Origin: Flavobacterium sp. CFS9
Lineage (GTDB): Bacteria > Bacteroidota > Bacteroidia > Flavobacteriales > Flavobacteriaceae
Direction of reading: 5' to 3'
Length of the DNA: 64,000 bases
NCBI RefSeq assembly: GCF_041154745.1
Contig: NZ_AP031573.1
Location: 1,178,001 to 1,242,000, forward strand
Positions within the stretch are counted from its first letter, which is position 1; each line of letters starts with the position of its first letter. The notes below the pieces were generated by a model. It was not told where the DNA came from. It did no database searches and saw only the letters and a list, made by a program, of their open reading frames with translations. This document shows, piece after piece, positions 7,962 through 38,446 of the stretch. The position numbers and the translations under genes were made by a program.

Positions 7962-7972
7962 TACAGAACAAA

Positions 7973-9475: not shown

Positions 9476-9505
9476 GAAATACCAAAAAATAACATAATTT
9501 AACAC

Positions 9506-9535
9506 AAAACCACCTCGTATAGGGGTGGTTTTTTT
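9506..9535 (+). terminator. Terminator after susCD pair 1
   Basis: AAAACCACC (9506-9514) pairs with GGTGGTTTT across a short loop and is followed by a T run. It lies 31 bases after the susD stop. Confidence 0.85.
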
Positions 9536-9789
9536 ATTGAAAACGCAGAAAAAACTGAAATTCATCGTCCATCTTATAAAATTTAACATTTTATTCAGCA
9601 GGTACAAACTAAATTATCCATTGCTTTTTAAGTAAAAAAATAATAATTCCTCATTTTTGAATGCATTTTAACGATAAAAAAATAACTCCTGTCAGCAAAA
9701 ATGCCGTTTCGCTGAAAAAAAAACTTTTTTGATTAGGTATATTAACTAATTATTAAGATTTTTGTCGGACTAATTCAAAATATTTAAAA
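9536..9789 (+). promoter_or_regulatory. Spacer and conserved susC leader, copy 2
   Basis: Gene-free spacer before susC 2. From about 9711 it aligns base by base with the region before susC 3: an A9 run, CTTTTTTG-ATTAGGT, TTAACTAATTATTAAGATTTTT, then GACTAATTCAAAA. Weaker similarity extends further up (TTTTAAC...AAAAAA...CCTG, about 9668-9705). The homology indicates that regulatory DNA was duplicated with the gene. No canonical TAnnTTTG box was found. Confidence 0.5.
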
Positions 9790-12700: not shown

Positions 12701-12978
12701 TACAAGCAGCTTTAAATGGTATTGCAGAATCTGCAGTATTTGATGCAAGTTTTGTAAAATTAAGAGAGGTTACTTTAGGATACCAATTCCCTAAATTATT
12801 AGACAACGCAGTAGACATCAAAGCTTCTGTTTTCGCAAGAAACATCTTGTTATGGTCTAAAATGCCAAATCTTGATCCAGAAGCAACACAAGGAAACAAC
12901 AACTTTGCTGGTGGATTCGAACAATGGTCAATGCCACAAACTAAGAGCATTGGTTTTGGATTGAACTTTACATTTTAA
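9790..12978 (+). CDS. SusC/RagA family TonB-dependent transporter 2
   Basis: The 1062-residue protein has the same architecture as its neighbours: signal peptide (LTFAQ/E), regulatory-like domain to about residue 98, plug (about 105-250, with IIIRGARSFTG, YVIDGMPV and INVLKGQAASALYGLRASNGVILITTK), and a barrel ending TF. The first ~75 residues are nearly identical to SusC 1 and SusC 3, while plug and barrel are strongly diverged, so ligand specificity is expected to differ. Its susD follows after 14 bp. Confidence 0.93.
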   Translation: MKLKFNGFLVLFLVLVAQLTFAQERAVSGTVSDNTGIPLPGVSVLVKGTKTATQTDFDGKYTIKAAPNQVLVFSYIGMKAQEVSASSTTVNAKLKDDSVELESVVVTALGVKKSARALGYATQEVKAADITRANNNSLAGALQGKLAGVSITPSSGAPGASSQIIIRGARSFTGNNTPLYVIDGMPVASQPDFGTGNGVTGADIANRAVDIDPNEIESINVLKGQAASALYGLRASNGVILITTKSGKNLAQSGKPTITFNTSTSFETISKKPSTQNEYAQGINGKFDPNSSMNWGPKISELPNDATYGGNVANALNGGTLRPGLYYVPQRAKAGLDPWVAPRAYDNIGDFFKTGFTINNTLNVAQSTEKTNYSFGVGNSKQDGIIPETGMSRYTVKALVDTKLNNEWKTGFSFNYVQTKINKSSAANDGAIVGVFGGPRSYDLKGIGYANPSNPYDQIYYRPGVFNNPYWAAKNNEFSEKTNRVYGNAYIQYSPIISENGSQKLTVKYQAGVDSWTTNYRDIFEFGSKLDLSGQTSSAHLYGTTNDVINSLLTVNYNLNITNDFNLNVLVGNEYNHQNTKEYDDLGTAFNFGGFPTITNARIVTASEYRRQIRTVGFFGNAEFSYKNMIFLSGTIRKDIASNMPRNNRDFVYPSASLGFVVTELEGLKGSSVLSYAKLRGSIAEVGQAGNYVGNSFTTPSYSGGFWSGNPVQYPLGGISSFIPSNVQYDPNLKPQNTKSYELGVDLKFFNNRVGIDYTFSKQNSTNQIFNVPLSGSTGANSLVTNGGKMRNDVHELSLFVNPVRTADFNWTFNVNYSQIDSYVEALANGVDNIFLGGFTTPQLRASVGDRFPVIYGTGYLRDANNNIVVNAQGLPQADGKLKVLGEVAPKFTLGGSTQFTYKRVSLGAVVDWKNGGKMYSGSNNLMNFYGVDARTADRTSQFVYPGVKADGTPNDIVRGGAADPNGAQQLQAALNGIAESAVFDASFVKLREVTLGYQFPKLLDNAVDIKASVFARNILLWSKMPNLDPEATQGNNNFAGGFEQWSMPQTKSIGFGLNFTF

Positions 12979-12992
12979 TTAAAAAAAATCAA

Positions 12993-14426
12993 ATGAAAAA
13001 TATAAAAATAACACTAACAGCTTTAATGGCTACGTTCTTATTCCAAGCTTGTTCTGAGGACAAGATGGACGAAATAAATAAGAATGTGAACAATCCGACA
13101 GAGATGGCTAGCCGCTTAATCATTACGGATGTTATGGTGAATTCTGCCTTCACAGTAACTGGTGCTGATGCTTCATTTTACGCAGGTATCTACTCTGAGT
13201 TAAGTGCAGGAAATCACAATCAAATGTACAATGCTCAGATTAGAAGAGCTGATCCACAATTATCTTCAACTTACAATAACGGCTGGAACAATAGCTACAG
13301 ACAATTATTGAATTTAGGAGTGATTATTGACAACTGTACAACTGGTAAAGAAAAAGGAAATTTCCAAACATTAGGTGTAGCACAAATCTTAAAGGCTTAC
13401 AACTTAGCGATCCTTACCGATCTTTTTGGAGACGTTCCTTACACTGAAGCTGTAAAACCAGGAGTAATTTTTCAACCAAAAGTTGACAAACAAGAAGCTA
13501 TTTACCAAGACATCTTTAAAAACCTTACTGAAGGTATTGCTAACTTGAACAAAACTTCAACTTATGCAACTTTAGGTGTTCAGGATCCTATTTATGGTGG
13601 AAATTCTGCTAAATGGATAAAAGCAGCAAACGGATTATTAGCAAGATACACTATGAGATTATCTCTTAGAAAAGCGGATTACCAAGGTGTAATTAACTAT
13701 GTAAATGCTTCTTTCGCAGATGCTAGCGACGAATTAAAACTTGTAAATGGTGGTGTTCCAAATCCTTTCGCAAGATTCGAATTAAACAGAGGAGCTATTT
13801 GTGTTGCTAAAAGTTTCTACGACACTATGGTTGCTAACGGACCTGCAGATGCTCGTACAGCTTCTTTCTTTACAAAAAAGGCTGGTGTAGTACTTCCTTT
13901 TGACAATTCAAAAGAAGATGTTGAAGCTCAAGGCAGATATTCTATCTCAGCTCTTATGAGCGAGGCAAACGCAATCTACTTATTAAGCTACCACGAATTA
14001 TTGTTCTTGAAAGCTGAAGCACAAGCGAGATTAGGTTTACCTGAAGCACAAACAACGATGAATGCAGCTATTAAAGCAGCTTACGCTAAAAAAACAGCTG
14101 TAGCATTTACACCGGCGCAAGCAGATACCTACATTGCTTCTATTGGAGCTTTAACCGGTAATGCCTTGTTGAAAAAAATCATGGTAGAAAAACACATTTC
14201 TTTCTTTGAAAATGAAGGTATCGAATCTTATAACGACATCAGACGTTTACAAGCAATGGGTAATGGAGACCTTATTCCTATGGTAAATCCAAAACCTGAA
14301 TTGTTTCCACAAAGATTTGCTTACGGTCAATCTGACGTTGCTTCAAACACAAACGTTAAAGAACTATACGGAGACGGTTCTTATGTATACAAAGAAAAAG
14401 TTTGGTGGGCTGGAGGTACTAGATAA
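12993..14426 (+). CDS. SusD-like surface lipoprotein 2 (SusD-like_2 type)
   Basis: The 477-residue lipoprotein has lipobox FLFQAC (Cys20) followed by SEDKMDE. The segment LTDLFGDVPYTEAVKPG and the C-terminal helix block (FFENEGIESYNDIRRLQ) resemble the SusD_RagB variant often called SusD-like_2. It is partner to SusC 2 and is followed 29 bases on by a very strong terminator, which makes pair 2 a separate transcription unit. Confidence 0.88.
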   Translation: MKNIKITLTALMATFLFQACSEDKMDEINKNVNNPTEMASRLIITDVMVNSAFTVTGADASFYAGIYSELSAGNHNQMYNAQIRRADPQLSSTYNNGWNNSYRQLLNLGVIIDNCTTGKEKGNFQTLGVAQILKAYNLAILTDLFGDVPYTEAVKPGVIFQPKVDKQEAIYQDIFKNLTEGIANLNKTSTYATLGVQDPIYGGNSAKWIKAANGLLARYTMRLSLRKADYQGVINYVNASFADASDELKLVNGGVPNPFARFELNRGAICVAKSFYDTMVANGPADARTASFFTKKAGVVLPFDNSKEDVEAQGRYSISALMSEANAIYLLSYHELLFLKAEAQARLGLPEAQTTMNAAIKAAYAKKTAVAFTPAQADTYIASIGALTGNALLKKIMVEKHISFFENEGIESYNDIRRLQAMGNGDLIPMVNPKPELFPQRFAYGQSDVASNTNVKELYGDGSYVYKEKVWWAGGTR

Positions 14427-14455
14427 TAGTATTCTTTAATTCCAAAACAAACCCT

Positions 14456-14498
14456 AAGAAGGGCACTTATCTTGAGATAAGTGCCCTTCTTTTTTTTT
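14456..14498 (+). terminator. Strong terminator after susCD pair 2
   Basis: A perfect 16-bp stem (14456-14471 with 14476-14491; AAGAAGGGCACTTATC and its complement) closes a 4-base loop and is followed by a T run to 14498. Confidence 0.95.
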
Positions 14499-14819
14499 AT
14501 AAAAACATACAAAATCTATAAACAGGTAAAGAATCTGCCTCATCCTCCATATTAAAAAAAAACTTAAATATCGTTTTTAAGAGAATACCAAACACCCCAA
14601 ACACCTCCTCTTAAGTTTATCTCACAAAATTTTAACATTTTTCAGCATTGTCGTATTTCAAACAAAAATCCTTCAACACCGCATAAACACTGACTTTTTA
14701 ACATCAAAAAAACACATCCTGCAATAAAATACTCTACATTCCCAAAAAAAAAGCTTTTTATATTAGGTCGTTTAACAAATAATTAAGATTTTTACCAGAC
14801 TAATTCAAAACACATAAAA
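14499..14819 (+). promoter_or_regulatory. Spacer and conserved susC leader, copy 3
   Basis: A 321-base gene-free stretch before susC 3. Bases 14742-14819 match leader copy 2 (A9 run, TATTAGGT, TTAACAAATAATTAAGATTTTT, GACTAATTCAAAA). The part upstream is A/T-rich, with weak similarity to the copy 2 spacer and no ORF or hairpin of note. Confidence 0.5.
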
Positions 14820-17800
14820 ATGAAACTAAAGTTCAATGGACTCCTAGTACTTTTATTAGTACTAGTAGCGCAACTTACTTTTGCGCAAGAAAGAGCTGTT
14901 TCTGGAACAGTTTCCGATAATACAGGAATGCCTTTACCAGGTGTTAGTGTATTGATCAAAGGAACAAAAACAGGGACACAAACAGACTTTGATGGTAAAT
15001 ACTCTATCAAAGCTTCTTCAAACCAGGTTTTGGTATTTAGCTACATCGGGATGAAAACTCAGGAAGTAGCCGCCACCTCTTCTGCAATTAATGTAAAATT
15101 ATTAGATGGTGCCGCACAACAACTGGAAAGTGTTGTTGTAACTGCATTCGGTATTAAGCGTAATCCTAAAAAACTAGGATACTCTGTTAGCGAAGTAAAA
15201 GCAGAACAAATTACTCAAAATTCAGAACCAGATTTATCAAGAGCTCTTGCAGGAAAAGTTGCAGGGGTTAACATTAATACATCAACTGGTGTTGCAGGAG
15301 CTGCCAACCAAATTACCATTAGAGGGGTAAACTCATTAACAGGTAATACAGACCCTTTAATTATCGTTGACGGTATTGCTTACAGCAATGTATCGGTAAC
15401 TTCAACTAGCCAAATCACTGGAGGAGGTGGATATGAATCTGCTTTATCTTCTTTAGATCCTAATGACATCGCAAGTATCAACGTACTTAAAAGTACTGCT
15501 GCTGCTGCACTTTACGGTTCAAGAGCTATGAACGGGGTAATCGTTGTAACCACTAAATCCGGTGCATCTAAACCAAATAAATCACAAAAATTAAATGTAA
15601 ATGTTGGAATGGGTACTTATTTTGAAACCATAGCCAACTTACCAGACTACCAAAACACTTATGGTTCAGGAGCAAATTTCCAGTACTCAAACGCAAATGG
15701 TTCATGGGGACCACGCTTTGACTCAATGGCAACAATCCCTACATGGCCAACATTGCTAGCCGCTTTCCCTGATCAGTTTGGACCTACAGTTCCTTATGTT
15801 GCAAAACCAAACAACGTAAAAGACTTATTCAGAACAGGAACAGTGTTAGACAAAACAATCGGTTTTAACTATGCCGGACAAGACGGAACTTTTAATGCTA
15901 CTATTTCAGATTTACGTCAGGATGGTTACATTCCTTACAACTCTTACGACAGAACCTCTATGTCTGCAGGTGGAAACTTCAAACTAAGTAAAAAATTCAC
16001 TGTTGGAGCCAACTTAGCGTACTCAAAAACAAAACAAGTAGGAGGTTTCTTTGGAGAAAACCAATTTGCAGGATCTTCTTCTTCATTTGCCAGAACTTTG
16101 TTCTTAGCCAGAAACTGGGATTTAAATCTTCCATACGTAGATCCTGTAACAGGTGGATCTGTTACTCCAAACGGAACACAATTCGACCACCCACTTTGGT
16201 CTTGGCAACACGACCAGATTATCACTCATACGGATAGAATTGTTGCAGGTATTAACTTAAACTACACTTTCAACGACAATATTTCAGCATCTTACAGAGC
16301 TGGTATTAACAAATATTCATTAGCGAGAACTCAGGTTCGTGATCTGGCTTCCAGAGCAAATAATGGATTAGGTAATTTACTTGCTGATAACTACGTAAAC
16401 CAGGATATTGAATCTACATTCTTATTAAACTTCAATTATGAATTGAATGAGAACTTTAAATTAGCAACTATTGTTGGTAATAACGTATTGCAAAATGAGT
16501 ATTCAAGACTTGCAAATGAAGGAAGAGAATTCATTGTACCAAACATCTTTACTTTTAAAAACGTTAAAAGTATAGCGAATCTAACGGATGAGCGAGCTAT
16601 GAAAAGAAATGTCGGAGTATTTGCCGATGTAACTTTATCCTATAAAGATTACCTGTTTTTAAATGCTACAGCCAGAAATGACTGGAGTTCATCTTTACCA
16701 AAAGAAAGAAACTCTTATTTCTATCCATCTGTAAGTGCCTCAGCAGTTATAACTGATGCCTTCAATATCCAAAGTGATATTTTAACTTTTGCTAAATTAA
16801 GAGCCAGTTTCGCTAAAGTTGGTAGAGATGTACCTGCAGAATTCTTAAAAATATCTTACAACCAAGGACAAGCTTACAATGGCCTTCCTAGAATTGGAAA
16901 CAATACTTTCCTGGGAGATCAAAATGTTAAGCCAGAATTCTCAGAAGAATACGAAATTGGTACTGACTTAGAGTTTTTCAGAAAACGTATTGTAGTTGAT
17001 TTGAGTTTGTACTCCAAAACGACAAGAGATCTAATTACTCCTGTAACTGTAGCTTCTTCAACAGGTTTTACTGAATTAAATACAAATGCAGGTTCTATTA
17101 GAAACAAAGGTATCGAACTTGGATTAACATTAGTACCTGTTAAAACTAAAGACTTCACATGGTCGTTACTAACTAACTTCACTAAAAACGAAAATGAAGT
17201 ATTAACATTGAAAGAAGGTTTAGACAGAATTCAACTTAATGCAAACCAAATTGCTTATGCAATTCCAGGACAGCCTTTTGGAGTTTTCTACGGAACAAGA
17301 TTTGCTCGTGATGCTAATGGAAATTATTTGATCAACAGATCAGGAGGAGCCGTTATTCAAGACCCATCACTTGGTGTTATTGGAGATCCAAATGCTGATT
17401 TCAGAGTAAGTTTCGCTAATACCTTTACTTACAAAGCGTGGAGTTTAAGAACACAATTTGACTGGAAACAAGGAGGTGATATCTCTTCTTCTACTATAGA
17501 ACAATTATTAGGAAGAGGTGTAACCAGAGATACTGAAGACAGAGAGAAAACATTTATTATCCCGGGTTACTACGGAAATAATGACGGAACTCCGATCTTA
17601 GATGCTAATGGAAATCAAATTCCAAACACTACTCAATTAAGCATGAATGAGCTTTACTTCTCTCCTGCCGGAGGAAGTACTTTTGGAATAAATTCTGTTG
17701 ATGAAGCGACAATTTATGACGGAACTGTATTTAGATTAAGAGAGATAAACTTAACTTATGACGTACCAAGTAAAATTCTTGAAAAAACTCCATTTGGAAA

Positions 17801-17975
17801 AATCAGTTTAAGTTTTATTGCAAACAACCTATGGTATTTTGCACCAAACGTTCCTAAGTATACCAATTTTGATCCTGAAACAACAAGCTACGGTAATTCA
17901 ACATTACAAGGTATAGAGACTTCAGCTGCTCCGACAGCAAAAAGATGGGGCTTCAAAATTAATTTAACATTTTAA
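14820..17975 (+). CDS. SusC/RagA family TonB-dependent transporter 3
   Basis: The 1051-residue protein has signal peptide, regulatory-like domain (to about 100), plug (about 105-255, with ITIRGVNSLTG, IIVDGIAY and INVLKSTAAAALYGSRAMNGVIVVTTK) and a barrel ending LTF. In the plug motif the usual Gly of LKG is Ser (VLKST). At the DNA level the first ~230 bases are about 90% like susC 2, a similarity that does not continue into the barrel. It is followed after 11 bp by its susD and then by an extra lipoprotein gene. Confidence 0.93.
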   Translation: MKLKFNGLLVLLLVLVAQLTFAQERAVSGTVSDNTGMPLPGVSVLIKGTKTGTQTDFDGKYSIKASSNQVLVFSYIGMKTQEVAATSSAINVKLLDGAAQQLESVVVTAFGIKRNPKKLGYSVSEVKAEQITQNSEPDLSRALAGKVAGVNINTSTGVAGAANQITIRGVNSLTGNTDPLIIVDGIAYSNVSVTSTSQITGGGGYESALSSLDPNDIASINVLKSTAAAALYGSRAMNGVIVVTTKSGASKPNKSQKLNVNVGMGTYFETIANLPDYQNTYGSGANFQYSNANGSWGPRFDSMATIPTWPTLLAAFPDQFGPTVPYVAKPNNVKDLFRTGTVLDKTIGFNYAGQDGTFNATISDLRQDGYIPYNSYDRTSMSAGGNFKLSKKFTVGANLAYSKTKQVGGFFGENQFAGSSSSFARTLFLARNWDLNLPYVDPVTGGSVTPNGTQFDHPLWSWQHDQIITHTDRIVAGINLNYTFNDNISASYRAGINKYSLARTQVRDLASRANNGLGNLLADNYVNQDIESTFLLNFNYELNENFKLATIVGNNVLQNEYSRLANEGREFIVPNIFTFKNVKSIANLTDERAMKRNVGVFADVTLSYKDYLFLNATARNDWSSSLPKERNSYFYPSVSASAVITDAFNIQSDILTFAKLRASFAKVGRDVPAEFLKISYNQGQAYNGLPRIGNNTFLGDQNVKPEFSEEYEIGTDLEFFRKRIVVDLSLYSKTTRDLITPVTVASSTGFTELNTNAGSIRNKGIELGLTLVPVKTKDFTWSLLTNFTKNENEVLTLKEGLDRIQLNANQIAYAIPGQPFGVFYGTRFARDANGNYLINRSGGAVIQDPSLGVIGDPNADFRVSFANTFTYKAWSLRTQFDWKQGGDISSSTIEQLLGRGVTRDTEDREKTFIIPGYYGNNDGTPILDANGNQIPNTTQLSMNELYFSPAGGSTFGINSVDEATIYDGTVFRLREINLTYDVPSKILEKTPFGKISLSFIANNLWYFAPNVPKYTNFDPETTSYGNSTLQGIETSAAPTAKRWGFKINLTF

Positions 17976-26891: not shown

Positions 26892-28247
26892 TTACTCAAT
26901 CAGTCCTTTCACATCATCAAAATTCAATCCTCCGTAATTACCGGAACTCATTAATAATAAAGCTGAATTTTCAAGATTTAAATTGAAAAGATATTCTTTA
27001 AATTCATCAGGATTGGTGTAAATAATTAAGTCTTCGCGATTAAAAGAACTTGCTATCTGCTCATAAGTCACTTCTTCCAGCTGTTTAATTTTTACCGCAT
27101 CCGGTGAGTAAAATACTACTGCAACATCAGCATATTCAAGAGCTCCTTCATACTCTTTTAAAAACTCAGCGTTCAAACTGCTGTAACTGTGTAATTCCAG
27201 ACAAGCCACTAAAATTCGGTTTGGATACTGTTCTTTTACGGCTTTTGTAGTTGCAGCTACTTTACTTGGAGAGTGGGCAAAATCTTTGTAAGCTACTTTT
27301 CCTTTTCCTTCTGCTATTTTTTCTAATCGTTTTGAGGCTCCTTTAAAACTTGCGATTGCTTCATAAAAATCGGCTTCGTCAACTCCCATGTTTTGGCAAA
27401 TCCACTTTGCACCGGCAAGATTATTTAAATTGTGTGCACCAAAAACTTCAATTGGCATATCACCTTCCGGAGTTTCTAATAAAGTTACACCATCATTAAC
27501 GGTATATTTTGGAGTAGTATAAGCTAATTTACGGATTGGATTCGTAGCGGCTTCAGCAACACGTTTTACTTCCGGATCATTTTCGTTGTACACCAAAATT
27601 CCTCCATTTGTAATTTTCCCAATAAAGATTTCGAATTGTTCAACATAATTCTCATAAGTAGGGAATACATTGATGTGGTCCCAGGCTATTCCTGAAATCA
27701 AGGCGATATTTGGCTGATACAAATGAAATTTCGGACGTCTGTCTATAGGAGAAGATAAATACTCATCTCCTTCCAAAACCACGAAATCATTTTCTTCAGT
27801 AAGATGTACCATCGTATCAAAACCTTCTAACTGTGCTCCAACCATATAATCTATTTCGATATTATGATAATGCATGACATGAAGAATCATCGAAGTTATG
27901 GTTGTTTTTCCATGCGAACCTCCAATTACCACACGGGTTTTATTTTTAGACTGCTCGTACAAAAATTCCGGATAAGAATAAATCTTCAGCCCTAATTCCT
28001 GTGCCTTTAGCAACTCCGGATTATCAGCTTTTGCATGCATTCCCAGAATTATAGCATCAATATCAGCAGTAATTTTTTCGGGAAACCAACCCATTTCAGC
28101 CGGTAAGATTCCCTTTTTTTCCAACCTTGATTTTGAAGGTTCAAAAATAGCATCATCGCTTCCTGTTACCTGATATCCTTTATTGTACAATGCAAGTGCT
28201 AAATTATGCATGGCGCTTCCGCCTATGGCGATGAAATGTGTTTTCAT
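26892..28247 (-). CDS. mpl: Mpl-type UDP-N-acetylmuramate:tripeptide ligase
   Basis: Mur-ligase family enzyme of peptidoglycan recycling that joins UDP-MurNAc to L-Ala-gamma-D-Glu-mDAP. The 451-residue product has the N-terminal nucleotide fold (FIAIGGSAMHNLALAL), ATP loop GSHGKTT (110-116), the Mpl-like central segment VLEGDEYLSSPIDRRPKF, and C-terminal DFAHSPSKVAATTKAV (the Mur-ligase DxAHxPxK/E position). EGDEY...D(R)RPKF distinguishes Mpl from MurC. Monocistronic and divergent from the alpha-2-macroglobulin gene. Confidence 0.88.
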   Translation of the reverse strand: MKTHFIAIGGSAMHNLALALYNKGYQVTGSDDAIFEPSKSRLEKKGILPAEMGWFPEKITADIDAIILGMHAKADNPELLKAQELGLKIYSYPEFLYEQSKNKTRVVIGGSHGKTTITSMILHVMHYHNIEIDYMVGAQLEGFDTMVHLTEENDFVVLEGDEYLSSPIDRRPKFHLYQPNIALISGIAWDHINVFPTYENYVEQFEIFIGKITNGGILVYNENDPEVKRVAEAATNPIRKLAYTTPKYTVNDGVTLLETPEGDMPIEVFGAHNLNNLAGAKWICQNMGVDEADFYEAIASFKGASKRLEKIAEGKGKVAYKDFAHSPSKVAATTKAVKEQYPNRILVACLELHSYSSLNAEFLKEYEGALEYADVAVVFYSPDAVKIKQLEEVTYEQIASSFNREDLIIYTNPDEFKEYLFNLNLENSALLLMSSGNYGGLNFDDVKGLIE

Positions 28248-28459: not shown

Positions 28460-31400
28460 ATGAAAAAAATATTATTTGTATTCTTACTATTTTCAGCAAC
28501 ACTCTTTGCACAACAAAATGATAAAAAATGGAGCAAGATTATCACTTTTGAAAACGAAGGTAAAATAAAATCTGCAAATGAACTTGTGTCTAAAATTTAC
28601 GACAAAGCAATTGCAGATCACGATGAAGTACAATTAATAAAATGCTTTTTTTATCAATCTAAATACCTGCAAATTATTGAAGAAAATGCTCAAACTAAAA
28701 TCATAAATAACTTAAGAAACCAGATAAATCAAGTTTCGATTCCTTCAAAAGTTATACTAAATTTAGTTTATGCGAAATGTCTCAACGGCTACTTAATTTC
28801 TAATAATTATAAAATCAGAAAACGAACAAATACTGAAATTTATAATGATGATTTTCTTACTTGGACTGAAAACAGTTTTAATGATGAAATAAACAAGGCT
28901 TTAAAACAAACATTAGAAAATGAAAATGTACTAAAGAATACCCCTCTAACAAAATATGATCCTATTTTTGATTACGGAACTTTAGAGAAATTCAAACAAG
29001 AAAATCTATATACATATGCCATTGCAGAAAACATTGCATTTTATACCCAAAAGATACAAACATGGCAAATCCAAAAAAATGATTTCAAGCTTTATTATAA
29101 TGCCTTTTTAGGGAAACACGAAGATTTTACAAAGCTTAATCTGAACTTTATAACCAATGAATATCTTCGTTTGGTTCTTACATTATATCAAAACCAGGAA
29201 ATTAATAATCCAAACTTAGAGAATCATTTTAATCGTATTCTTTTTTGCAAATTGTACTTAATTGAGCCTGATAACAAATATTTAAATACTCTAAATACTT
29301 TACAAATAGGGACACAAGATGAGATATTAATTCAAAAAATCCAATTAGAAAAATCTGATGTTCTAATACAAAAAGCCTCTAAAGAATTGTACCCGGACTA
29401 CAATATTAAAGCTGTAGCTCTTTTAGACAGTATTTTAAAAATAGAAAACAGATCAAATGCGTACAAATCTGCATTGAGTCAAAAACAAAAGATTTTATTG
29501 AAATCTCTAAATGTTCAACTACAAAAATATACTTACACTAACGAAAACACGAGAGCTCTCATTCAGTATAAAAATGTAAACCAACTAAAAATTTCTTTCT
29601 ATAAAATAAATCAAAATCAGGTGGCCTACTTGGATAGATTTTACAAAGACAGAGATAGTTTGTTTAGAAGCATTACAGAAAAACAACAACCAATATTTTC
29701 AGATTCCTATGACCTAAAAGATAAAAAAGATTATTTTCAACATTCTACTGAAGTACTTTTACCTCGTTTAACAACTGGTTCTTACTTAGTTTATTTTGAG
29801 AGCGAATCTGACAAAGAAGTAAAAAAAGTATTCGCATACCAAACTATTACAAGTTCCAACCTTATAGTTCTAGCATCACAAAATAATAAAAAAGAAACAT
29901 TTCAGGTTGTAGACAGAAAAACAGGAAAACCTCTCGAAAATGTAACTATAAAATCTCCTACATTTAATATTAAAACAAATGAAAAAGGTTTAGCTTCTAA
30001 TAATAAAGAAACTAATTATAACTACGAAAACGTAGAACTTTATCTTGCAAATGATACGCTTTCTATTGCAAAAAACTACATCAACTATTCTAATGATTAC
30101 GAAACAGATAAAACAATTCAATTTAGAGGAAAAGTAGAATTTTACTTAGACCGTGCCATTTATCGTCCCGGACAGATTGTATATTATAAAGGGATCGCTT
30201 TTCAAAGAAATAATGGTAAAAATAATGTTGTTCCCAAAACTACTTTTAAAATAACCGTAGAGGACGCAAACGGCAATGATTTTAAAGAATTTGATGTTAC
30301 TACCAATGAATTTGGCTCTTTTTCTGGCGAATTTACTTTGCCAAAAACTGGGTTAACAGGCAATTTTAAAATTATTGCTGCTGAACCCTACGATTATGAA
30401 AAAGATATAATTTATGATAAAGAAACAGACGAACATCCTTTTTGGAGCAATTTCGATTTAGAAGATTCTCAAAAGCAATTTAAAGTAGAAGAATACAAAC
30501 GACCAAAATTTGAAGTAACTTTTGATCCTAAAAAAGAAAGCTTCCAAATCAATCAGGCTTTAAAAGTGAAAGGATCTGCAAAAGCTTTTGCCGGCAGCAA
30601 TATCTCAGATGCAAAAGTCACTTACACCGTAACACGATATGTAAGTTACTTTAGAAATTATTATGGTCGAGAAGAAAATGAAATTCTTTCATCTGGAGAA
30701 ACTAAAACGGATGCTTCAGGCAGATTTACTGTTGATTTTACCGCCTTTCCTTCTAAAAACTCTAACAAAGAACAATTACCCGTTTTTAATTATCAGATTC
30801 AGGTCACTGTTACTGATATAAACGGTGAAACCCATGATGCTGAAACAACTCTAAAAGCAGGTTATCATGACTTAATCCTGAATACCGAAATTCCTCATGA
30901 AATTGAAACTAAAAACAAAAATAAAATTAAAATAACCAGTACGAATTTAAATGGAGAATTCCTGGCTACTAAAGGCGAACTAAAAATCTATTTTATTCGT
31001 CCTTTTTCTAACAAATTTAAAGCCAGAATCTGGGAGAAACCAGAAAGTGAAACTATTTCTGAACAAGACTTTGAAAAATTATTTCCTTATGAAAATAATG
31101 CAAAAACACTCCGCGAAAAACAAAATGAAACTTTAGTTTTTACTAAAAAAATCGATACTGAAAAAGATGCAAACATCCCTCTTGATTTTATAACCGAATA
31201 TAAATCCGGTTATTACAAAATTGTTGTCTCTGCAAAAGACCACTTTGGTAATCCAATCGAAACAACTGAAAACTTTGAAATCACACAAAGCAAAGACAAA
31301 TTTAATCCAAGTAAATTATTTACCGTTAAACAAATAAATGAGGTTCCTAAAAAAGATGGCTTTATTCTCTTTAAACTTACCTCTGCTATTCCTGAACTCT

Positions 31401-34400
31401 ATATTACAACAAGTGGAAATTATACTAATACTGTATTTTTTGAAGAAGCCAATCATCTTCAGAACAACGAGCTTACAGTAAAGATTCCATTAAAAAATGA
31501 ATTTGAAAAAACACTAAAAATAAGATTTGAAAGTATTTTTGAAAACCAGTCATTTAACAATGAAACTGTTGTAATCTTAAAACAAACTGCACCAAAATTA
31601 GAATGGAAATCAGAAAGTTTCAGAAGTAAAATACAACCAGGAAGCAATGAAAGTTGGTCATTTCAGTTAAAGAACAAAAACACAAAAAAAGAAACTGAAA
31701 TTCTGGCCTCAATGTACGATAGTTCTTTAGACATGTTTGTTATTGACAAGTGGAATGGCCTAGAATTCGAAAACTATAATTATAATCAAGCTAGTATCAA
31801 ATCTGTTTTAGGTTTACAGAACACATATATTACTTTACCGAATTTAAATACAAATCTAAAAGCAATTCAATTTAGTAATGAATCTACAAGTCTTATCTGG
31901 TTCGGATTCGACTTTAACAATCCAAACTCCACATACCTGCAAAACCAATATTTAAAACAGCTAAGCAAAAAAGCGAAAAAGCCTACTAATGTAAAATTAA
32001 TCTCAGGAATAATAATTGACAATAGCGACCTACCCTTGCCCGGAGCTACTGTCACGATAAAAGGTACACAAAGAACCACAACTTCTGATTTTGATGGTTA
32101 CTATCAAATCGAAGCTGCTTCAGGAGAGGAATTAATTTTCTCTTATCTTGGTATGACAACCCAAACCGTGGTAGTTTCCGGTTTGAAAAATATTGATGTT
32201 ATTCTAGAAAAAGATTCTAATCTATTAGAAGGAGTCGTGGTTACAGCTCTTGGAATGAAAAAGGAAAAGAAATCACTTGGATACTCCACAAAAAAAGTAA
32301 GTTCCGAACAAATTGAAGAGGACACTAATGTATACAGTATTTCATCAGCACTATCAGGAAGAGTTGCGGGAGTCAGTGTAACTAGAAGCGAAACCTCAGA
32401 CAAAATAATAATTCGCGGAACAAACTCTGATGAATCAAAAAATCCGATTTATGTAATAGACGGTGTAATTACATCGGGAGACACAATTCAGAATCAAAAT
32501 GCATCAGACATCTTGTCAATAGATGTTCTAAAAGGAGATAAAGCCACAGTACTTTATGGAAGCAAAGGAGCCAACGGAGCCATAATCATTACAACCAAAA
32601 AATCCGTAGAGGCTTTAACACAAGTAAAAGCCAGAAAGAATTTATCTGAGACTGCTTTCTTTTTACCAAACTTAAGAACAGATGCGAGCGGAAAAGTAAG
32701 TTTTAACTTTACCTCCCCTGAAGCTTTGACGTCTTGGAAGCTTCGTTTACTCGCGCACAATAAAGATGCTGTTTCGGGTTATTTAGAGAAAAGCGTTATT
32801 ACTCAAAAGGAATTAATGATTCTGCCTAATTTCCCTCGCTATTTTAGAGAAAAGGATACTATCGTAATTAGCGCTAAAATTTCGAATGTTACTGCCGAAA
32901 CAAAAACAGGAATTGCAAGTTTACAGCTTTTTGATGCTGTAACCATGCAGCCTATTGATGCCAAAATGCTAAACACAAAAAACATCAAAAACTTTACTGT
33001 TGGTGCTTTTGGAAACACAACGGCAACCTGGACGATTTATATTCCCGAGGGGCTACAAGGTGTTCAATATAAAATTCTGGCCAAATCAGGCAATTTTTCT
33101 GATGGAGAAGAAAACATTCTACCGGTTTTGACTAATAATATGCTTGTTACGGAAAGTATTCCAATCTGGGTTCGAGAAAACTCAACCAAAGAATACACAT
33201 TTGAAAATCTGAAAAACAGCAATTCAACTACTTTAAAGAATCATCAATTTACTTTAGAATATACTTCAAATCCAACCTGGCTTGCCATTGAATCACTTCC
33301 CTATTTAATGGAATACGAACATGAATGTGCCGAACAAACTTTTGCTCGTTTTTATGCCAATACTTTGGCCTCAGAAATTATTTCGAGTAATCCGAAAATC
33401 GCAGCTCTTTTTGAAAATTGGAGAAAGAACGGAAAACTAAATTCTAAACTAGAAGAAAATGACGAATTGAAATCTATTATTCTGGCTGAAACTCCCTGGC
33501 TGAAAGATGCTGAAACCGAAGACGAAAAGAAAAAAAATATCGCCCTTTTGTTTGATTTAGAAAAAATGAAAACTTCGAAAGAAGCTACTTTCGACAAATT
33601 AAAACAAAAACAAAAAGCATCCGGAGGGTTTTCATGGTTTGACGGAAGCAATGAAAGCGAATACATAACCCGACATATTCTGGCAGGTTTGGGTCATTTA
33701 TCAAAATTGAATAAAACAGAAGATAACAAAGAAAAAATCGATGCGATTGCCAAAACCGGAATTCCGTTTCTGGATACTAAATTTTTACAATACTATAAAA
33801 ACAGTATCAAAGACTTAAAACCAACGGAAAAACTAATCTGGATCAATCCATATTCAGATCTTCATTATTTGTATACCAGAAGTTTTTATTTAGAGAAATA
33901 TCCACTTTCTGACACTTTAAAAAAAGTCAGCAAGCTTTATTTGGAAACGGCTAAAAAAGATTGGCTGAACTATTCTATTTACGAAAAAGGTTTAACTGCA
34001 TTAACGTTGAATCGTTTTGGGGAAAAAGAAACTGCTAAAAAAATCATAGAGAGTCTAAAAGAAACATCATCAAGCAACGAAGACTGGGGAATGTATTGGA
34101 TTGCTAATAAAGCAGGTTGGTATTGGTATGAGGCACCTATTGAAACTCAGGCGCTATTAATTGAAGCTTTCGTCGAAGTGAGTAACGACAATAAATCTGT
34201 TGATGCAATGAAAGTATGGTTATTGAAAAACAAGCAAACTAAAAACTGGCCAACGACTAAATCAACTACAGAAGCCATTTACGCTTTATTAATGCACGGT
34301 ACAGACTGGCTTTCTGTAAAAGATAATACTGTTATAAAATTAGGAGCTGAAAAAATCATAACTAAAAAACTAGCTGAAACTGAAAAAGAAGCTGAAACAG

Positions 34401-34969
34401 GTTATTTTAAACTAAACTGGAAGGCAGATGAAGTTAAAAAAGATATGGCTTCCATTACTATTCAAAATAAATCAAAAATTCCTGCATTTGGCGGAGCTTA
34501 CTGGCAGTATTTTGAAGATCTGGATAAAATCAAAACCAATTCAGGATCAGTCCTATCAGTTTCGAAAGAATTATATTTAAAGAAAAGCACATTAAAAGGT
34601 AATCAATTAGAAAAGATCACTTCCAAAAATTCTTTAAAAATAGGCGATTTGATTACCGTACGATTAATTATTACTTCAAAGGAAGATATCGAATATGTAC
34701 ATTTAAAAGACATGAGAGCTTCTTGTTTTGAACCTACAGATGTCCTTTCTCAATATCAGTATAAAGATCGTTTGGGGTATTATATGAGTACAAAAGATGC
34801 GGCAACTCATTTCTTCTTTGACCAAATCAACAAAGGAACTTATGTTATAGAATATGATATAAGAGTAAACAACAGTGGAGAATTCTCTAACGGAATTACA
34901 ACAATTCAAAGTATGTATGCACCAGAGTTCACCAGTCATACTAAAGGAATCAGAGTAAAAGTGCAGTAA
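28460..34969 (+). CDS. Alpha-2-macroglobulin with inserted TonB-plug module
   Basis: A 2169-residue exported protein. Signal peptide 1-17 (SATLFAQ, no lipobox). Helical N-terminal region to about 300; macroglobulin domains follow (MG2 with RAIYRPGQIVYYKG near 560; MG3 with VEEYKRPKFEV near 675; MG6 with SFRSKIQPGSNESWSF near 1050). At 1181-1255 lies a carboxypeptidase-regulatory-like domain (LPLPGATVTIKGTQRTTTSDF) and at 1256-1385 a TonB-receptor plug (IIIRG, YVIDG, IDVLKGDKATVLYGSKGANG). The macroglobulin resumes at 1392 (RKNLSETAFFLP). Thioester motif CAEQ is at Cys1623, then the thioester-domain helices (GWYWYEAPIETQALL) and a C-terminal MG domain. Such proteins trap proteases in the periplasm or at the surface; the role of the plug is unknown. 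No penicillin-binding protein 1C gene, its usual partner, is adjacent. Confidence 0.9.
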   Translation: MKKILFVFLLFSATLFAQQNDKKWSKIITFENEGKIKSANELVSKIYDKAIADHDEVQLIKCFFYQSKYLQIIEENAQTKIINNLRNQINQVSIPSKVILNLVYAKCLNGYLISNNYKIRKRTNTEIYNDDFLTWTENSFNDEINKALKQTLENENVLKNTPLTKYDPIFDYGTLEKFKQENLYTYAIAENIAFYTQKIQTWQIQKNDFKLYYNAFLGKHEDFTKLNLNFITNEYLRLVLTLYQNQEINNPNLENHFNRILFCKLYLIEPDNKYLNTLNTLQIGTQDEILIQKIQLEKSDVLIQKASKELYPDYNIKAVALLDSILKIENRSNAYKSALSQKQKILLKSLNVQLQKYTYTNENTRALIQYKNVNQLKISFYKINQNQVAYLDRFYKDRDSLFRSITEKQQPIFSDSYDLKDKKDYFQHSTEVLLPRLTTGSYLVYFESESDKEVKKVFAYQTITSSNLIVLASQNNKKETFQVVDRKTGKPLENVTIKSPTFNIKTNEKGLASNNKETNYNYENVELYLANDTLSIAKNYINYSNDYETDKTIQFRGKVEFYLDRAIYRPGQIVYYKGIAFQRNNGKNNVVPKTTFKITVEDANGNDFKEFDVTTNEFGSFSGEFTLPKTGLTGNFKIIAAEPYDYEKDIIYDKETDEHPFWSNFDLEDSQKQFKVEEYKRPKFEVTFDPKKESFQINQALKVKGSAKAFAGSNISDAKVTYTVTRYVSYFRNYYGREENEILSSGETKTDASGRFTVDFTAFPSKNSNKEQLPVFNYQIQVTVTDINGETHDAETTLKAGYHDLILNTEIPHEIETKNKNKIKITSTNLNGEFLATKGELKIYFIRPFSNKFKARIWEKPESETISEQDFEKLFPYENNAKTLREKQNETLVFTKKIDTEKDANIPLDFITEYKSGYYKIVVSAKDHFGNPIETTENFEITQSKDKFNPSKLFTVKQINEVPKKDGFILFKLTSAIPELYITTSGNYTNTVFFEEANHLQNNELTVKIPLKNEFEKTLKIRFESIFENQSFNNETVVILKQTAPKLEWKSESFRSKIQPGSNESWSFQLKNKNTKKETEILASMYDSSLDMFVIDKWNGLEFENYNYNQASIKSVLGLQNTYITLPNLNTNLKAIQFSNESTSLIWFGFDFNNPNSTYLQNQYLKQLSKKAKKPTNVKLISGIIIDNSDLPLPGATVTIKGTQRTTTSDFDGYYQIEAASGEELIFSYLGMTTQTVVVSGLKNIDVILEKDSNLLEGVVVTALGMKKEKKSLGYSTKKVSSEQIEEDTNVYSISSALSGRVAGVSVTRSETSDKIIIRGTNSDESKNPIYVIDGVITSGDTIQNQNASDILSIDVLKGDKATVLYGSKGANGAIIITTKKSVEALTQVKARKNLSETAFFLPNLRTDASGKVSFNFTSPEALTSWKLRLLAHNKDAVSGYLEKSVITQKELMILPNFPRYFREKDTIVISAKISNVTAETKTGIASLQLFDAVTMQPIDAKMLNTKNIKNFTVGAFGNTTATWTIYIPEGLQGVQYKILAKSGNFSDGEENILPVLTNNMLVTESIPIWVRENSTKEYTFENLKNSNSTTLKNHQFTLEYTSNPTWLAIESLPYLMEYEHECAEQTFARFYANTLASEIISSNPKIAALFENWRKNGKLNSKLEENDELKSIILAETPWLKDAETEDEKKKNIALLFDLEKMKTSKEATFDKLKQKQKASGGFSWFDGSNESEYITRHILAGLGHLSKLNKTEDNKEKIDAIAKTGIPFLDTKFLQYYKNSIKDLKPTEKLIWINPYSDLHYLYTRSFYLEKYPLSDTLKKVSKLYLETAKKDWLNYSIYEKGLTALTLNRFGEKETAKKIIESLKETSSSNEDWGMYWIANKAGWYWYEAPIETQALLIEAFVEVSNDNKSVDAMKVWLLKNKQTKNWPTTKSTTEAIYALLMHGTDWLSVKDNTVIKLGAEKIITKKLAETEKEAETGYFKLNWKADEVKKDMASITIQNKSKIPAFGGAYWQYFEDLDKIKTNSGSVLSVSKELYLKKSTLKGNQLEKITSKNSLKIGDLITVRLIITSKEDIEYVHLKDMRASCFEPTDVLSQYQYKDRLGYYMSTKDAATHFFFDQINKGTYVIEYDIRVNNSGEFSNGITTIQSMYAPEFTSHTKGIRVKVQ

Positions 34970-35123: not shown

Positions 35124-37268
35124 TTACTTAATAATTGTCATTTCGTCAATAATGTTTTTAGCTCCGGCGTATTTATCGATAATCCAAAGTACGTAACGGA
35201 TATCTACGTTAATTGTTCTTTGTAATTTAGAGTCGAAAATAACATCTCCTGCCATCGCTTCGATGTTTCCGTCAAAAGCAACTCCAATTAATTCTCCCTT
35301 TCCGTTTAATACCGGAGAACCTGAGTTTCCACCAGTAATATCGTTATCAGTTAAGAAGTTTACCGGCATATAACCTGCTTTGTCAGCATACTGTCCAAAA
35401 TCTTTTGCTTTGTTTAATTCTAACAAACGTTTTGGCAAATCAAATTCCTGATCTCCTGCTTTATACTTTTTAACCATACTTTCCATGGTTGTATAATTAT
35501 TGATTTTTGCATCGTTACGAGGATCAGCAGGTAAAGCTCTTACTTTTCCGTAAGTTAATCTCAATGTTGAGTTAGCGTCCGGATATTGAATAGCGTTCAA
35601 TTTAGATTCTCTTAAACCTTCTACCAATTTACGGTAAGCACTTGCGAAACCATCATCAGCTTTCAACTGATCGTCTGTTTTAGCACGGTATTTTGTCAAT
35701 AAATCGTTAGAGATAATATACAATGGATCGTGTACAATTGCTAATGGTTTAGGATTAGCCATAAATGCTAATACTTTATCTTTAGAAGTAAAATAACTGA
35801 TTTCAGTTGCTTTTGCTACATCAGCAGTAAAGTCACCATTGTTCTCTGATTTCATCTTAGCAATTTGTGTCGCTAAACCATATTCAGCGGCTTTAGAAGC
35901 GTATAAGTTCAATTGCGCTGTTAATACATCTTTTTCAAGAGGTGCATAAAATTCCCCGTAAATGTTTTCGATCATTGCGTTGATCTTAGGCAACATCTCT
36001 GCTTTCTTAGCATCAGTTTCGTTGTAATAAGCGATCAATGCGTTTCCTAGATTAGCAGGTCCTGTTGCATAAGCTGACGTACGTAAAAGCTGTGTCAGGT
36101 AATTGTCGTGAGTTGACTTTACATTTGTAGATCTGTAATAATCATTAATCGTTGGAATTACATTCTCATATTTTTCTTTATTAGCCGGTTTAGTAGCCCA
36201 CTCGTAAAATTTATCTTCTTGTGCCGCTTTAACCTCTGCAGTTCCTGCTTTTGTTAAAGCATCAATCATCCCCTGACGGTTTTTCCAGTAGTTGGCTGTA
36301 GAAGCATATTTAGACGCGTATTGCAAACGAACTGTTGCATCTTTGTCCATATATTTTTTCATTTGATCCATTCCGGTTTTTGCACCTTCAACCCATGCAG
36401 GGTAAGCAAACTTAACGTTTTGCTCAATTCCTCCAGCCGGCATCCAACGGTTTGTTCTTCCCGGATATCCTAAAATCATAGCAAAATCATTCTCTTTCAC
36501 TCCTTTGATACTTACCGGTAAGTAGTGTTTTGGTTTCAAAGGCACATTGTCTTTAGAATATGCTGCCGGATTTCCGTCTTTATCTGCGTACACTCTGAAC
36601 ATAGAGAAATCCCCTGTTTGACGAGGCCACTCCCAGTTGTCTGTATCTCCACCAAATTTACCAACACTTTCAGGAGGTGTTCCTACTAAACGAACGTCTG
36701 TGTAATCCTGATAAACGAAATAGTAATATTCATTCCCCTGAAAGAAAGGACGAACTGAAACCGTGTATTTTCCTCCTTCGTTATTTTCTTTTTCAATCAA
36801 AGCAATTTCCTGCTGGATCGCTTTACTTCTTTCAGTCTCTGTCATTGTATCATTTACTTTTGACAAAATTCTTTTAGAAACATCATCCATACGCACGAAG
36901 AAACGCACATACAATGATTTCGGTTTCATTTCGGCACTTCTTTGTTTTGCCCAGAAACCGTCTTTCAAATAGTTTTGCTCTGCCGAAGATAGTTCTGCAA
37001 TTGCATCGTAACCACAATGGTGATTCGTTAAAACCAATCCTTCTTTAGAAACGATTTCTGCTGTACAACCTCCATTAAATTGTACAATAGCATCTTTTAA
37101 ACTATGATGGTTGATACTGTAAATTTCTTCGGCTGTCAATTGCAAGCCCATTTTTTCCATATCTCTATGGTTCAATCTTTCGATAAACATCAAAAACCAC
37201 ATCCCCTCATCAGCTCTTACAGGAAAAGCCATCAGACACATGGTCAAGAATAAAACTATTTTTTTCAT
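35124..37268 (-). CDS. S46 family dipeptidyl-peptidase (DPP7-like)
   Basis: Exported serine dipeptidyl-peptidase that removes dipeptides from oligopeptides in the periplasm, feeding amino-acid catabolism. The 714-residue product has signal peptide 1-19, catalytic His in TNHHCGYDAI (His84), Asp in GGDTDNWEWPRQTGDF, and Ser in GGNSGSPV (Ser649). Eighteen residues after the Ser is Gly (FDGNIEAM). From memory this position is Gly in DPP7 (hydrophobic P1) and Arg in DPP11 (Asp/Glu P1), so DPP7-like specificity is inferred. The closing motif NVDIRYVLWIIDKYAGA is family-typical. Full length. Confidence 0.92.
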   Translation of the reverse strand: MKKIVLFLTMCLMAFPVRADEGMWFLMFIERLNHRDMEKMGLQLTAEEIYSINHHSLKDAIVQFNGGCTAEIVSKEGLVLTNHHCGYDAIAELSSAEQNYLKDGFWAKQRSAEMKPKSLYVRFFVRMDDVSKRILSKVNDTMTETERSKAIQQEIALIEKENNEGGKYTVSVRPFFQGNEYYYFVYQDYTDVRLVGTPPESVGKFGGDTDNWEWPRQTGDFSMFRVYADKDGNPAAYSKDNVPLKPKHYLPVSIKGVKENDFAMILGYPGRTNRWMPAGGIEQNVKFAYPAWVEGAKTGMDQMKKYMDKDATVRLQYASKYASTANYWKNRQGMIDALTKAGTAEVKAAQEDKFYEWATKPANKEKYENVIPTINDYYRSTNVKSTHDNYLTQLLRTSAYATGPANLGNALIAYYNETDAKKAEMLPKINAMIENIYGEFYAPLEKDVLTAQLNLYASKAAEYGLATQIAKMKSENNGDFTADVAKATEISYFTSKDKVLAFMANPKPLAIVHDPLYIISNDLLTKYRAKTDDQLKADDGFASAYRKLVEGLRESKLNAIQYPDANSTLRLTYGKVRALPADPRNDAKINNYTTMESMVKKYKAGDQEFDLPKRLLELNKAKDFGQYADKAGYMPVNFLTDNDITGGNSGSPVLNGKGELIGVAFDGNIEAMAGDVIFDSKLQRTINVDIRYVLWIIDKYAGAKNIIDEMTIIK

Positions 37269-37444: not shown

Positions 37445-38446
37445 TTACTCGTTAAGCATTTTCCAAAGCTTATCTTTTAAATCTGTTATCCCTTGTTGGG
37501 CAACAGATGAAATAAACATATAGGGAACGTCTTTGAAAGCGACATCCAATTCGGCTTTTAATTCCGCTTTCAATTCGTCATCCAGCATATCACATTTTGA
37601 AATTACTAAAAGACGTTCTTTGTCTAACATTTCAGGATTGTACTTGGTTAATTCATTTACCAAAATATCATACTCTGCTTTAATATCCGGAGTATCCACC
37701 GGAACTAAAAACAACAATGTTGAATTACGTTCGATATGACGCAGGAAATAATGACCTAAACCTTTTCCTTCTGCAGCTCCTTCGATAATTCCCGGAATAT
37801 CAGCAATTACAAAAGACTGATAATCTCTGTACGCTACAATTCCTAAGTTTGGCTTTAAGGTTGTAAAAGGATAATCGGCAATTTTTGGTTTTGCAGAAGT
37901 TAAAACAGACAGTAAAGTTGATTTTCCGGCATTTGGAAAACCTACCAAACCAACATCGGCTAATACTTTAAGTTCTAAAATTACATCCATTTCTACTCCC
38001 GGTAAACCTGGCTGGGCATAACGTGGTGTTTGATTGGTTGAACTTCTGAAATGCCAGTTTCCTAACCCTCCTTTTCCTCCTTTAGAAAGGATTTTTTTCT
38101 CACCATGTTCCGTAATCTCAAACAGTGTTTCTCCTGTTTCTTTGTCTTTTACCACAGTTCCTAAAGGTACTTCGATAAATTTATCTTCTCCGTCGGCACC
38201 TGTACTGCGGTCTCCTCCACCGTCTCCACCATGACCGGCTTTAATATGTCGTGCAAATTTTAGATGAAATAATGTCCAAAGTCCTTTATTCCCCACCAAA
38301 TACACGTGTCCTCCACGTCCACCATCACCTCCGTCAGGACCTCCTTTTTCAATAAATTTCTCTCTATGTAAATGCGTAGATCCTTTCCCTCCTTTACCGG
38401 AAGAAACATAAATCTTAACATAATCTACAAAATTTCCTTCTGTCAT
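37445..38446 (-). CDS. obgE: GTPase ObgE/CgtA
   Basis: Ribosome-assembly GTPase. The 333-residue product has the glycine-rich Obg fold ([22 protein letters not shown] region, then [20 protein letters not shown]) and the G domain: G1 [12 protein letters not shown]3 [17 protein letters not shown]4 SKCD. There is no long C-terminal extension, as in other Bacteroidota. It lies 101 bp downstream of the CNNM/CBS gene on the same strand, separated by an inverted repeat. Confidence 0.96.

Follow-up and report, generated by a model that had tools for sequence, protein, structure and literature searches.

The window analysed here, the whole 64,000-nucleotide stretch at positions 1,178,001 to 1,242,000 of contig NZ_AP031573.1 from Flavobacterium sp. 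CFS9, contains a gene for a protein of the alpha-2-macroglobulin (A2M) family in which part of a SusC-type transporter takes the place of the protease bait. The gene is a single uninterrupted frame of 2169 codons (28460..34969, on the forward strand, like all features of its product) and encodes 2169 amino acids. A preliminary description of this DNA, made from its letters, had proposed such a frame, and the proposal is borne out by the open reading frame and by the Pfam domains MG2 (PF01835, residues 561-640, 30140..30379), A2M (PF00207, residues 1398-1483, 32651..32908, E = 3.1e-15) and bMG10 (residues 2032-2156, 34553..34927), all of which exceed the curated Pfam cut-offs; NCBIfam adds the insert discussed below. 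In alignment with A2Ms of Bacteroidia, the motif YDSSLD (residues 1086-1091, 31715..31732) closes the conserved macroglobulin part ahead of the bait interval, and the translation contains the thioester motif CAEQ at residues 1623-1626 (Cys1623; 33326..33337). Read by eye, the protein starts with a signal peptide that has no lipobox cysteine (residues 1-18, 28460..28513), and is probably exported and soluble; anchoring as a lipoprotein was ruled out by the same inspection. The N-termini of homologues (20 starts compared by eye) are similar, fragments excepted. The Pfam bait-region domain PF07703 gave no match in the window protein at E ≤ 0.1. Because PF07703 does score in a relative with a short bait (L116, upstream of the bait, E = 5.3e-07), divergence of this region in the window protein is likelier than its absence. 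The genome encodes a second A2M, of 1889 amino acids, that starts like a lipoprotein (by eye), has no insert and shows the usual layout, Pfam bait-region domain included.

Residues 1181-1385 are equivalent to the N-terminal part of SusC/RagA transporters, with no barrel. This insert consists of an NTE domain (CarbopepD_reg_2, residues 1181-1261, 32000..32242; Pfam PF13715, E = 1.3e-15, and SusC alignment), a TonB box LEGVVVTA (residues 1256-1263, 32225..32248), assigned from its place between NTE and plug and from its conservation, and a barrel-less TonB plug (residues 1286-1385, 32315..32614), recognised by NCBIfam TIGR04056 and by solved SusC/RagA chains. The SusC/RagA model TIGR04056 covers residues 1181-1396 with its profile positions 3-220 of 981 (E = 9.9e-61), scoring 206 bits, where the curated cut-off for a complete transporter is 368; the match ends at position 220 and the frame goes on as an A2M, and the protein is therefore not a SusC. 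Among solved structures in the PDB the insert matches both SusC and RagA, and its alignment to the NTE and plug of the SusC chain 8aa4_A extends over 212 residues with few gaps (E = 9e-27). The regulatory domain and complete plug named in the preliminary description are thus supported by PF13715, TIGR04056 and 8aa4_A, but not by the Pfam Plug family PF07715, which gave no match in the window protein at E ≤ 0.1 and is carried by 89 of the 120 rows listed in the first homologue search described below (counted by eye). Of the other families it had suggested for a scan, PF01835 and PF00207 were found and PF07703, as noted above, was not. The motifs IIIRG (1316), YVIDG (1331) and VLKGDKATVLYGSKGANG (1356), the resumption of the macroglobulin as RKNLSETAFF from 1392 and the CAEQ at Cys1623 all lie where it had put them; the TonB box between NTE and plug had not been named.

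The fusion is widespread among Bacteroidota. A first search, with residues 1176-1500, yielded 999 proteins at E ≤ 1e-3 among 7992 candidates scored, and all 120 rows listed (query included) carry CarbopepD_reg_2 and A2M domains; 111 of them are near-full-length and form the first group of homologues, and one row, P0024, is annotated to Flavobacterium johnsoniae. A search with a Bacteroidales-type relative (L077) yielded 901 proteins, of which the 120 listed constitute a second group with names such as Bacteroides, Sphingobacterium, Chitinophaga, Niabella and Proteiniphilum; two of these rows (P0178 and P0183) lack CarbopepD_reg_2 by eye. The second group contains fusions from other Bacteroidota, such as the preliminary description had mentioned, and the presence of the insert in many orthologues rules out a local accident. 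The thioester motif CxEQ is retained in 107 of the 111 first-group and 108 of the 109 near-full-length second-group homologues. It reads CAEQ in the window and CNEQ in 13 of 14 aligned second-group A2Ms, the remaining one (P0205) having no motif. The TonB-box, IRG, DG and YGxxxxNG motifs of the insert are conserved in the 111 first-group homologues, with V1259, V1260 and V1261 of the TonB box at 0.99, 0.95 and 0.96; this conservation is biased upward because the rows were found with the insert region itself. Within the family, 85 of 159 Flavobacteriaceae genomes gave a match at E ≤ 1e-40, where a miss is no proof of absence, and this count refers to the A2M rather than to the insert because just three residues from the end of the insert were part of the query.

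A2Ms occur from bacteria to vertebrates, and the requirements on the bait have been worked out mainly on the human protein. In the window protein the macroglobulin resumes with the alpha'NT segment ARKNLSETAFF (residues 1391-1401, 32630..32662, from alignments), and the insert ends just before Arg1392, which is invariant across 97 aligned homologue rows. In the profile of these 97 homologues, SusC chains match positions 1153-1344 and A2M chains follow immediately behind, frog A2M starting with its residue 714 (7s62_A) at position 1348 and human A2M with its residue 747 (6tav_A) at position 1369; for the A2M region beyond the arginine the chain E-values range from 1e-6 to 1e-12. When 13 relatives that do not have the complete SusC piece are combined in a profile, the arginine of RxNLxETAFF is aligned to R732 of human A2M (6tav_A), where the stretch around R732 is by itself weak (5.1 bits, E = 26) and the enclosing chain match has E = 9e-10. 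A search of the PDB with residues 1383-1500 alone gave no match at E ≤ 1. According to the excerpt of PMC9352918 drawn on here, R732 lies in the channel strand of human A2M, and proteins of the C3 type hold a folded anaphylatoxin (ANA) domain in place of the bait. Because of the profile alignments to human and frog A2M and the conserved arginine, we place the SusC piece in the slot of the bait or of the C3 anaphylatoxin; the occupation of this slot is shown by alignment, and the pairing of Arg1392 with R732 is weak but consistent with it. A location of the insert outside the bait slot is ruled out by the same alignments, in agreement with the position assumed in the preliminary description. 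That description had named two outcomes as speaking against it, a plug outside the bait junction and an insert absent from all orthologues, and neither was found.

The content of the slot changes often. From the hits in the family and in the genus we picked 60 bait intervals; 59 of them are readable (L119 is not, and L149 and L153 have an arbitrary start). Four forms occur: a full set of NTE, TonB box and plug; the first two elements with no plug; a plug with no NTE; and a short form of about 150 residues. On a tree built from the flanks only (85 rows and 383 columns, bait columns excluded, by a short search and with several long branches), the presence of the plug requires at least 16 changes, 7 of them forced by starred branches, and all three bait classes together require 26; the labels for NTE, plug and TonB box are pattern-based, with some rows missed or over-called. 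We surveyed 80 named A2M loci, which were the top-ranking ones among 529 relatives, and could read the bait in 75. The divergent neighbour of the window gene, an mpl/murC-like ligase gene (26892..28247, reverse strand; library match and locus survey), has a match in 44 of the 80 loci, and 35 of these matches are divergent from the A2M frame and no more than 1.5 kb away; obgE (37445..38446, reverse strand; same evidence) has a match in 39. Both are found in 29 loci, with baits shorter than 200 residues in 17 and longer in 12; between mpl and obgE lie long baits (Zhouia, L165) as well as short ones (Maribacter flavus, L193; Algibacter, L194; Tamlana, L222). It looks as though long and short baits share one orthologous locus. 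These comparisons show turnover of the bait, whichever way the changes ran. The convergent neighbour, a Dpp7-like dipeptidyl-peptidase gene (35124..37268, reverse strand; library match and locus survey), has a match in only 10 of the 80 loci, and a syntenic link between A2M and Dpp7 was rejected. The bait intervals of L082 and L068 include Asp-rich stretches, DADADGVANIMDIEP and DVDHDGVLDKEDKP respectively, which we take to resemble calcium-binding repeats.

The plugs themselves are often reduced. The window plug is mildly shortened, with 11 residues between GRVAG and IIIRG. In SusC proteins this stretch is at least 15 residues long (median 18) in all 35 measured of 41, whereas no more than 8 residues remain in 36 of the 72 Flavobacterium-type A2M plugs that could be measured (of 111) and in 62 of 87 measured second-group plugs (of 109). 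In other Flavobacteriaceae genera it is 8 or less in only 1 of 12 measured plugs (of 17), and 10 of the 12 keep the full stretch. The measure is rough, as some examples were anchored one motif too early, and the rows that could not be measured number 6 of 41 SusC, 39 of 111 first-group, 22 of 109 second-group and 5 of 17 other-genera sequences. These lengths bear on the suggestion, made in the preliminary description, that the plug docks in a SusC barrel: the domain would enter an empty SusC-type barrel in trans and either gate it or fix the protease trap at the outer membrane. The close tracking of the solved SusC plug by the window plug would suit such docking, as would the full stretch kept in the other genera. 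However, many orthologues have no plug at all and the GRVAG-IRG stretch is frequently cut down in A2Ms and never in the SusC proteins measured, which disfavours docking; we regard it as highly improbable.

The insert appears to have entered the slot more than once. We built a tree of 82 NTE-plus-plug domains, which remained of 85 complete ones (among 119 sequences with matches) once copies had been taken out. On it at least four changes of the A2M label are required, two of them forced, and the plugs of the A2Ms L110 and L123 are placed among SusC sequences. A second tree of 88 rows, including 24 of the second group and leaving out the A2M rows L136, L149 and L077 and all but 7 first-group P rows, gives the same numbers, at least four changes and two forced, and a branch (90/77) sets the second group apart from all other rows. 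Two barrel-less proteins (L032 and L060) are among the 43 non-A2M rows used in both trees. A single origin of all A2M plugs is not supported by these trees. Because of the label changes and the nesting, we take the module to be inherited in the main, with at least one likely recapture. The nearest relatives of the window insert are A2M inserts, and a recent copy of a neighbouring or resident SusC gene was rejected: compared with the rest of the window and 31 loci of the same genome, the DNA of the insert matches at only 58-76%, in patches.

The trees are also what could be expected of a relic, that is, of an old SusC insertion in a permissive bait loop, later exchanged with dozens of resident SusC genes and serving only as spacer and bait. 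The source genome offers material for exchange, with 29 SusC matches above the family cut-off, and the human bait tolerates replacement, human A2M working even with a bait of Gly/Ser (excerpt of PMC9352918). We nevertheless consider a mere relic unlikely: the patchy DNA matches reveal no recent copy of a resident SusC in the window, and of two properties of the baits described next, the fixed spacing of the TonB box where the plug is missing speaks against a relic and a reversed order of motifs is not explained by simple erosion.

Short baits, here defined as those with fewer than 200 residues (n = 23), retain recognisable SusC motifs. We scored them with position matrices for the TonB box, GRVAG and IRG derived from 41 SusC-type domains (30, 32 and 38 usable, respectively), with p-values from shuffles of the same bait. 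The three motifs were detected at p ≤ 0.05 in 14, 13 and 11 of the 23 baits and at p ≤ 0.005 in 10, 11 and 5. The same 23 baits reversed gave 3, 1 and 1 detections at p ≤ 0.05 and none of any motif at p ≤ 0.005, and 54 windows of the same length taken elsewhere in 18 A2Ms of other families gave 2, 1 and 3, and 0, 0 and 1, at the two cut-offs. The order of the motifs in short baits (p ≤ 0.02) is mostly the reverse of that in transporters, with GRVAG before the TonB box in 8 cases versus 1, IRG before the TonB box in 5 versus 1 and IRG before GRVAG in 4 versus 2, compared with 0 versus 13, 1 versus 12 and 1 versus 13 for the same three orders in 36 long baits; these counts are inflated by related rows.

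The TonB box is also kept in baits that have an NTE and no plug, where it lies 39-40 residues after the DG motif of the NTE in 14 of 15 (the exception is L186). The 15 are the 17 rows sorted as NTE without plug minus L099 and L164, whose plugs the pattern had missed and which were re-sorted by eye; L111, L141 and L222, conversely, were called plug by pattern. Since the box persists in these baits, the idea of TonB binding, raised in the preliminary description, gains some weight. The TonB box of a bait would then bind the C-terminal domain of TonB and hold the soluble trap at the site of TonB-ExbBD and the transporters, with NTE and plug as spacers or force buffers, and cleavage would both fire the trap and cut the tether. 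LEGVVVTA corresponds in motif and place to VDEVVV, the TonB box of Bt1763, a levan transporter; according to the excerpt of PMC7782687, mutants of this box grew defectively on levan. A signal peptide without lipobox, unlike the lipoprotein-like start of the second A2M, would suit a tethered soluble protein, and a loose pattern, used without control, finds the TonB box in 101 of 111 first-group and 100 of 109 second-group homologues. On the other hand, a tether leaves the GRVAG and IRG of short baits unexplained, the TonB box being only slightly the most frequent of the three motifs. At p ≤ 0.05 the box is detected in 23 of 28 baits labelled NTE plus plug, 12 of 24 with plug only and 35 of 62 with neither, and goes undetected in 5, 12 and 27. 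As the principal alternative, tethering to TonB seems to us somewhat unlikely.

These results lead us to propose, with about even confidence, that the window protein is an exported periplasmic protease trap with a SusC-derived bait cassette, cleavage of which fires the trap. The cassette sits where A2M has an unstructured bait and C3 a folded anaphylatoxin domain. By the mechanism of the family, cleavage anywhere in the cassette would free the alpha'NT strand from its channel, the trap would collapse and the CAEQ thioester would be exposed and hold the protease covalently. The parts needed for trapping are retained, namely the CxEQ motif in nearly all near-full-length homologues of both groups and the junction residues 1386-1393, whose mean pairwise identity is 0.94 compared with 0.55 in the plug. 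According to the excerpt of PMC11658791, which cites Usher 2001, the plug of FepA on its own reportedly behaves like an unfolded chain, a behaviour that would fit a bait. Because a bait tolerates almost any sequence, the cassette has, in this reading, repeatedly been gained, trimmed, lost and permuted in its slot, with pieces that resemble the periplasmic face of SusC (TonB box, GRVAG and IRG) being kept. That transporter pieces are kept in the same slot, sometimes reordered, suggests a trigger with a second role. More tentatively, the baits of Flavobacteriaceae may be mimics of SusC, shuffled linear copies of the TonB box and plug renewed from resident transporters, which act as protease decoys or as a TonB handle at the site where foreign proteins enter. 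As decoys they would display the segments that foreign proteases meet on the numerous SusC transporters of the cell, which is the weakest step of the proposal. We infer that display as a decoy accounts for all three motifs and that a TonB tether best accounts for the persistence of the TonB box.

Several observations weigh against a SusC-derived bait cassette that is cleaved as trigger and kept for its resemblance to SusC. Since human A2M works with a Gly/Ser bait, bait duty alone leaves the kept SusC motifs and TonB box unexplained, and it is for this reason that they ask for a second role. The NTE is an unlikely cleavage site because its counterpart in Bt1763 is a folded Ig-like domain (excerpt of PMC7782687). 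The insert is not hypervariable in Flavobacterium: the mean pairwise identity is 0.57 in the NTE and 0.55 in the plug, compared with 0.58 in the N-terminal helical part and 0.62 in MG3-5 (a biased sample). Nonsynonymous divergence (dN) from L155 is 0.39-0.41 in the insert, 0.32 in the N-terminal part and 0.08 in MG7-TED, and no conclusion on selection is drawn from its ratio to synonymous divergence (dS), which is saturated. The baits of the 18 other-family A2Ms contain the TonB box, GRVAG and IRG in only 3, 3 and 4 cases at p ≤ 0.05 and in 2, 1 and 3 at p ≤ 0.005; because they score so little, the enrichment of motifs concerns mainly Flavobacteriaceae, with outliers such as L066 and L068. Finally, only 26 of 81 Flavobacterium genomes gave a match at E ≤ 1e-45, where again a miss is no proof of absence.

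The arrangement can be compared with several known systems. The bacterial A2Ms of E. coli (YfhM/ECAM) and Salmonella are alike in MG2, A2M and bMG10 domains and in the thioester motif, and their solved chains match the homologue profiles; the window protein differs from them by the SusC fragment (NTE, TonB box, plug) that occupies its slot, by lacking a lipobox, as judged by eye, and by giving no score for PF07703. Human A2M likewise has the alpha'NT arginine right after the bait. Complement C3-C5 also carry a folded domain, ANA, in the slot (excerpt of PMC9352918), whereas the folded piece of the window protein is a transporter fragment, recognised from sequence, and not an anaphylatoxin. SusC/RagA proteins (TIGR04056; Bt1763 and RagA) share the succession of NTE, TonB box and plug, but in the window these are embedded inside an A2M and without barrel. 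We found no description of a fusion of A2M with a SusC fragment in the open-licence literature, nor, in the same literature, 'macroglobulin' combined with 'TonB box'. In many Flavobacteriaceae, and in relatives from other orders of Bacteroidota, the bait slot is filled with fragments of a nutrient transporter, among which the motif for energy coupling is often preserved; this suggests that TonB box and plug can serve a purpose without a barrel. A functional TonB box would connect a protease trap with the Ton motor, for the first time as far as is known and as the open-licence literature shows; a cassette that acts as decoy would be a bait that mimics a protein of the cell itself. The question is directly testable, since long, short and permuted baits of a single orthologue exist naturally at this locus.

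Other SusC-type sequences occur in the window and elsewhere in the genome. Upstream of the A2M gene the window contains three SusC-type transporter genes (4749-7961, 9790-12978 and 14820-17975, region 4749-17975), and behind each of them lies a further gene with the strand in common. A cluster of barrel-less plug proteins lies elsewhere in the same genome (L034:2468-6560, G000:C1 at about 755.5-759.6 kb). It comprises an ECF sigma factor, a protein with a plug-core tail and no Pfam match that we guess from its place to be anti-sigma-like, a YfbK-type VWA protein with an N-terminal NTE and plug, and a mini-plug of 107 residues with a signal-like start. The VWA/YfbK protein resembles the window protein in having NTE and plug without barrel, but these precede the VWA module and do not lie in a bait slot. 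Two further plug-core matches lie in frames short for a SusC barrel protein, one of 532 residues with one TAA inside (G000:C1:4207679-4207921) and one of 593 residues (G000:C1:2326525-2326701). In another genome (G001, L060), NTE and plug occur in a frame of 442 residues that is apparently barrel-less.

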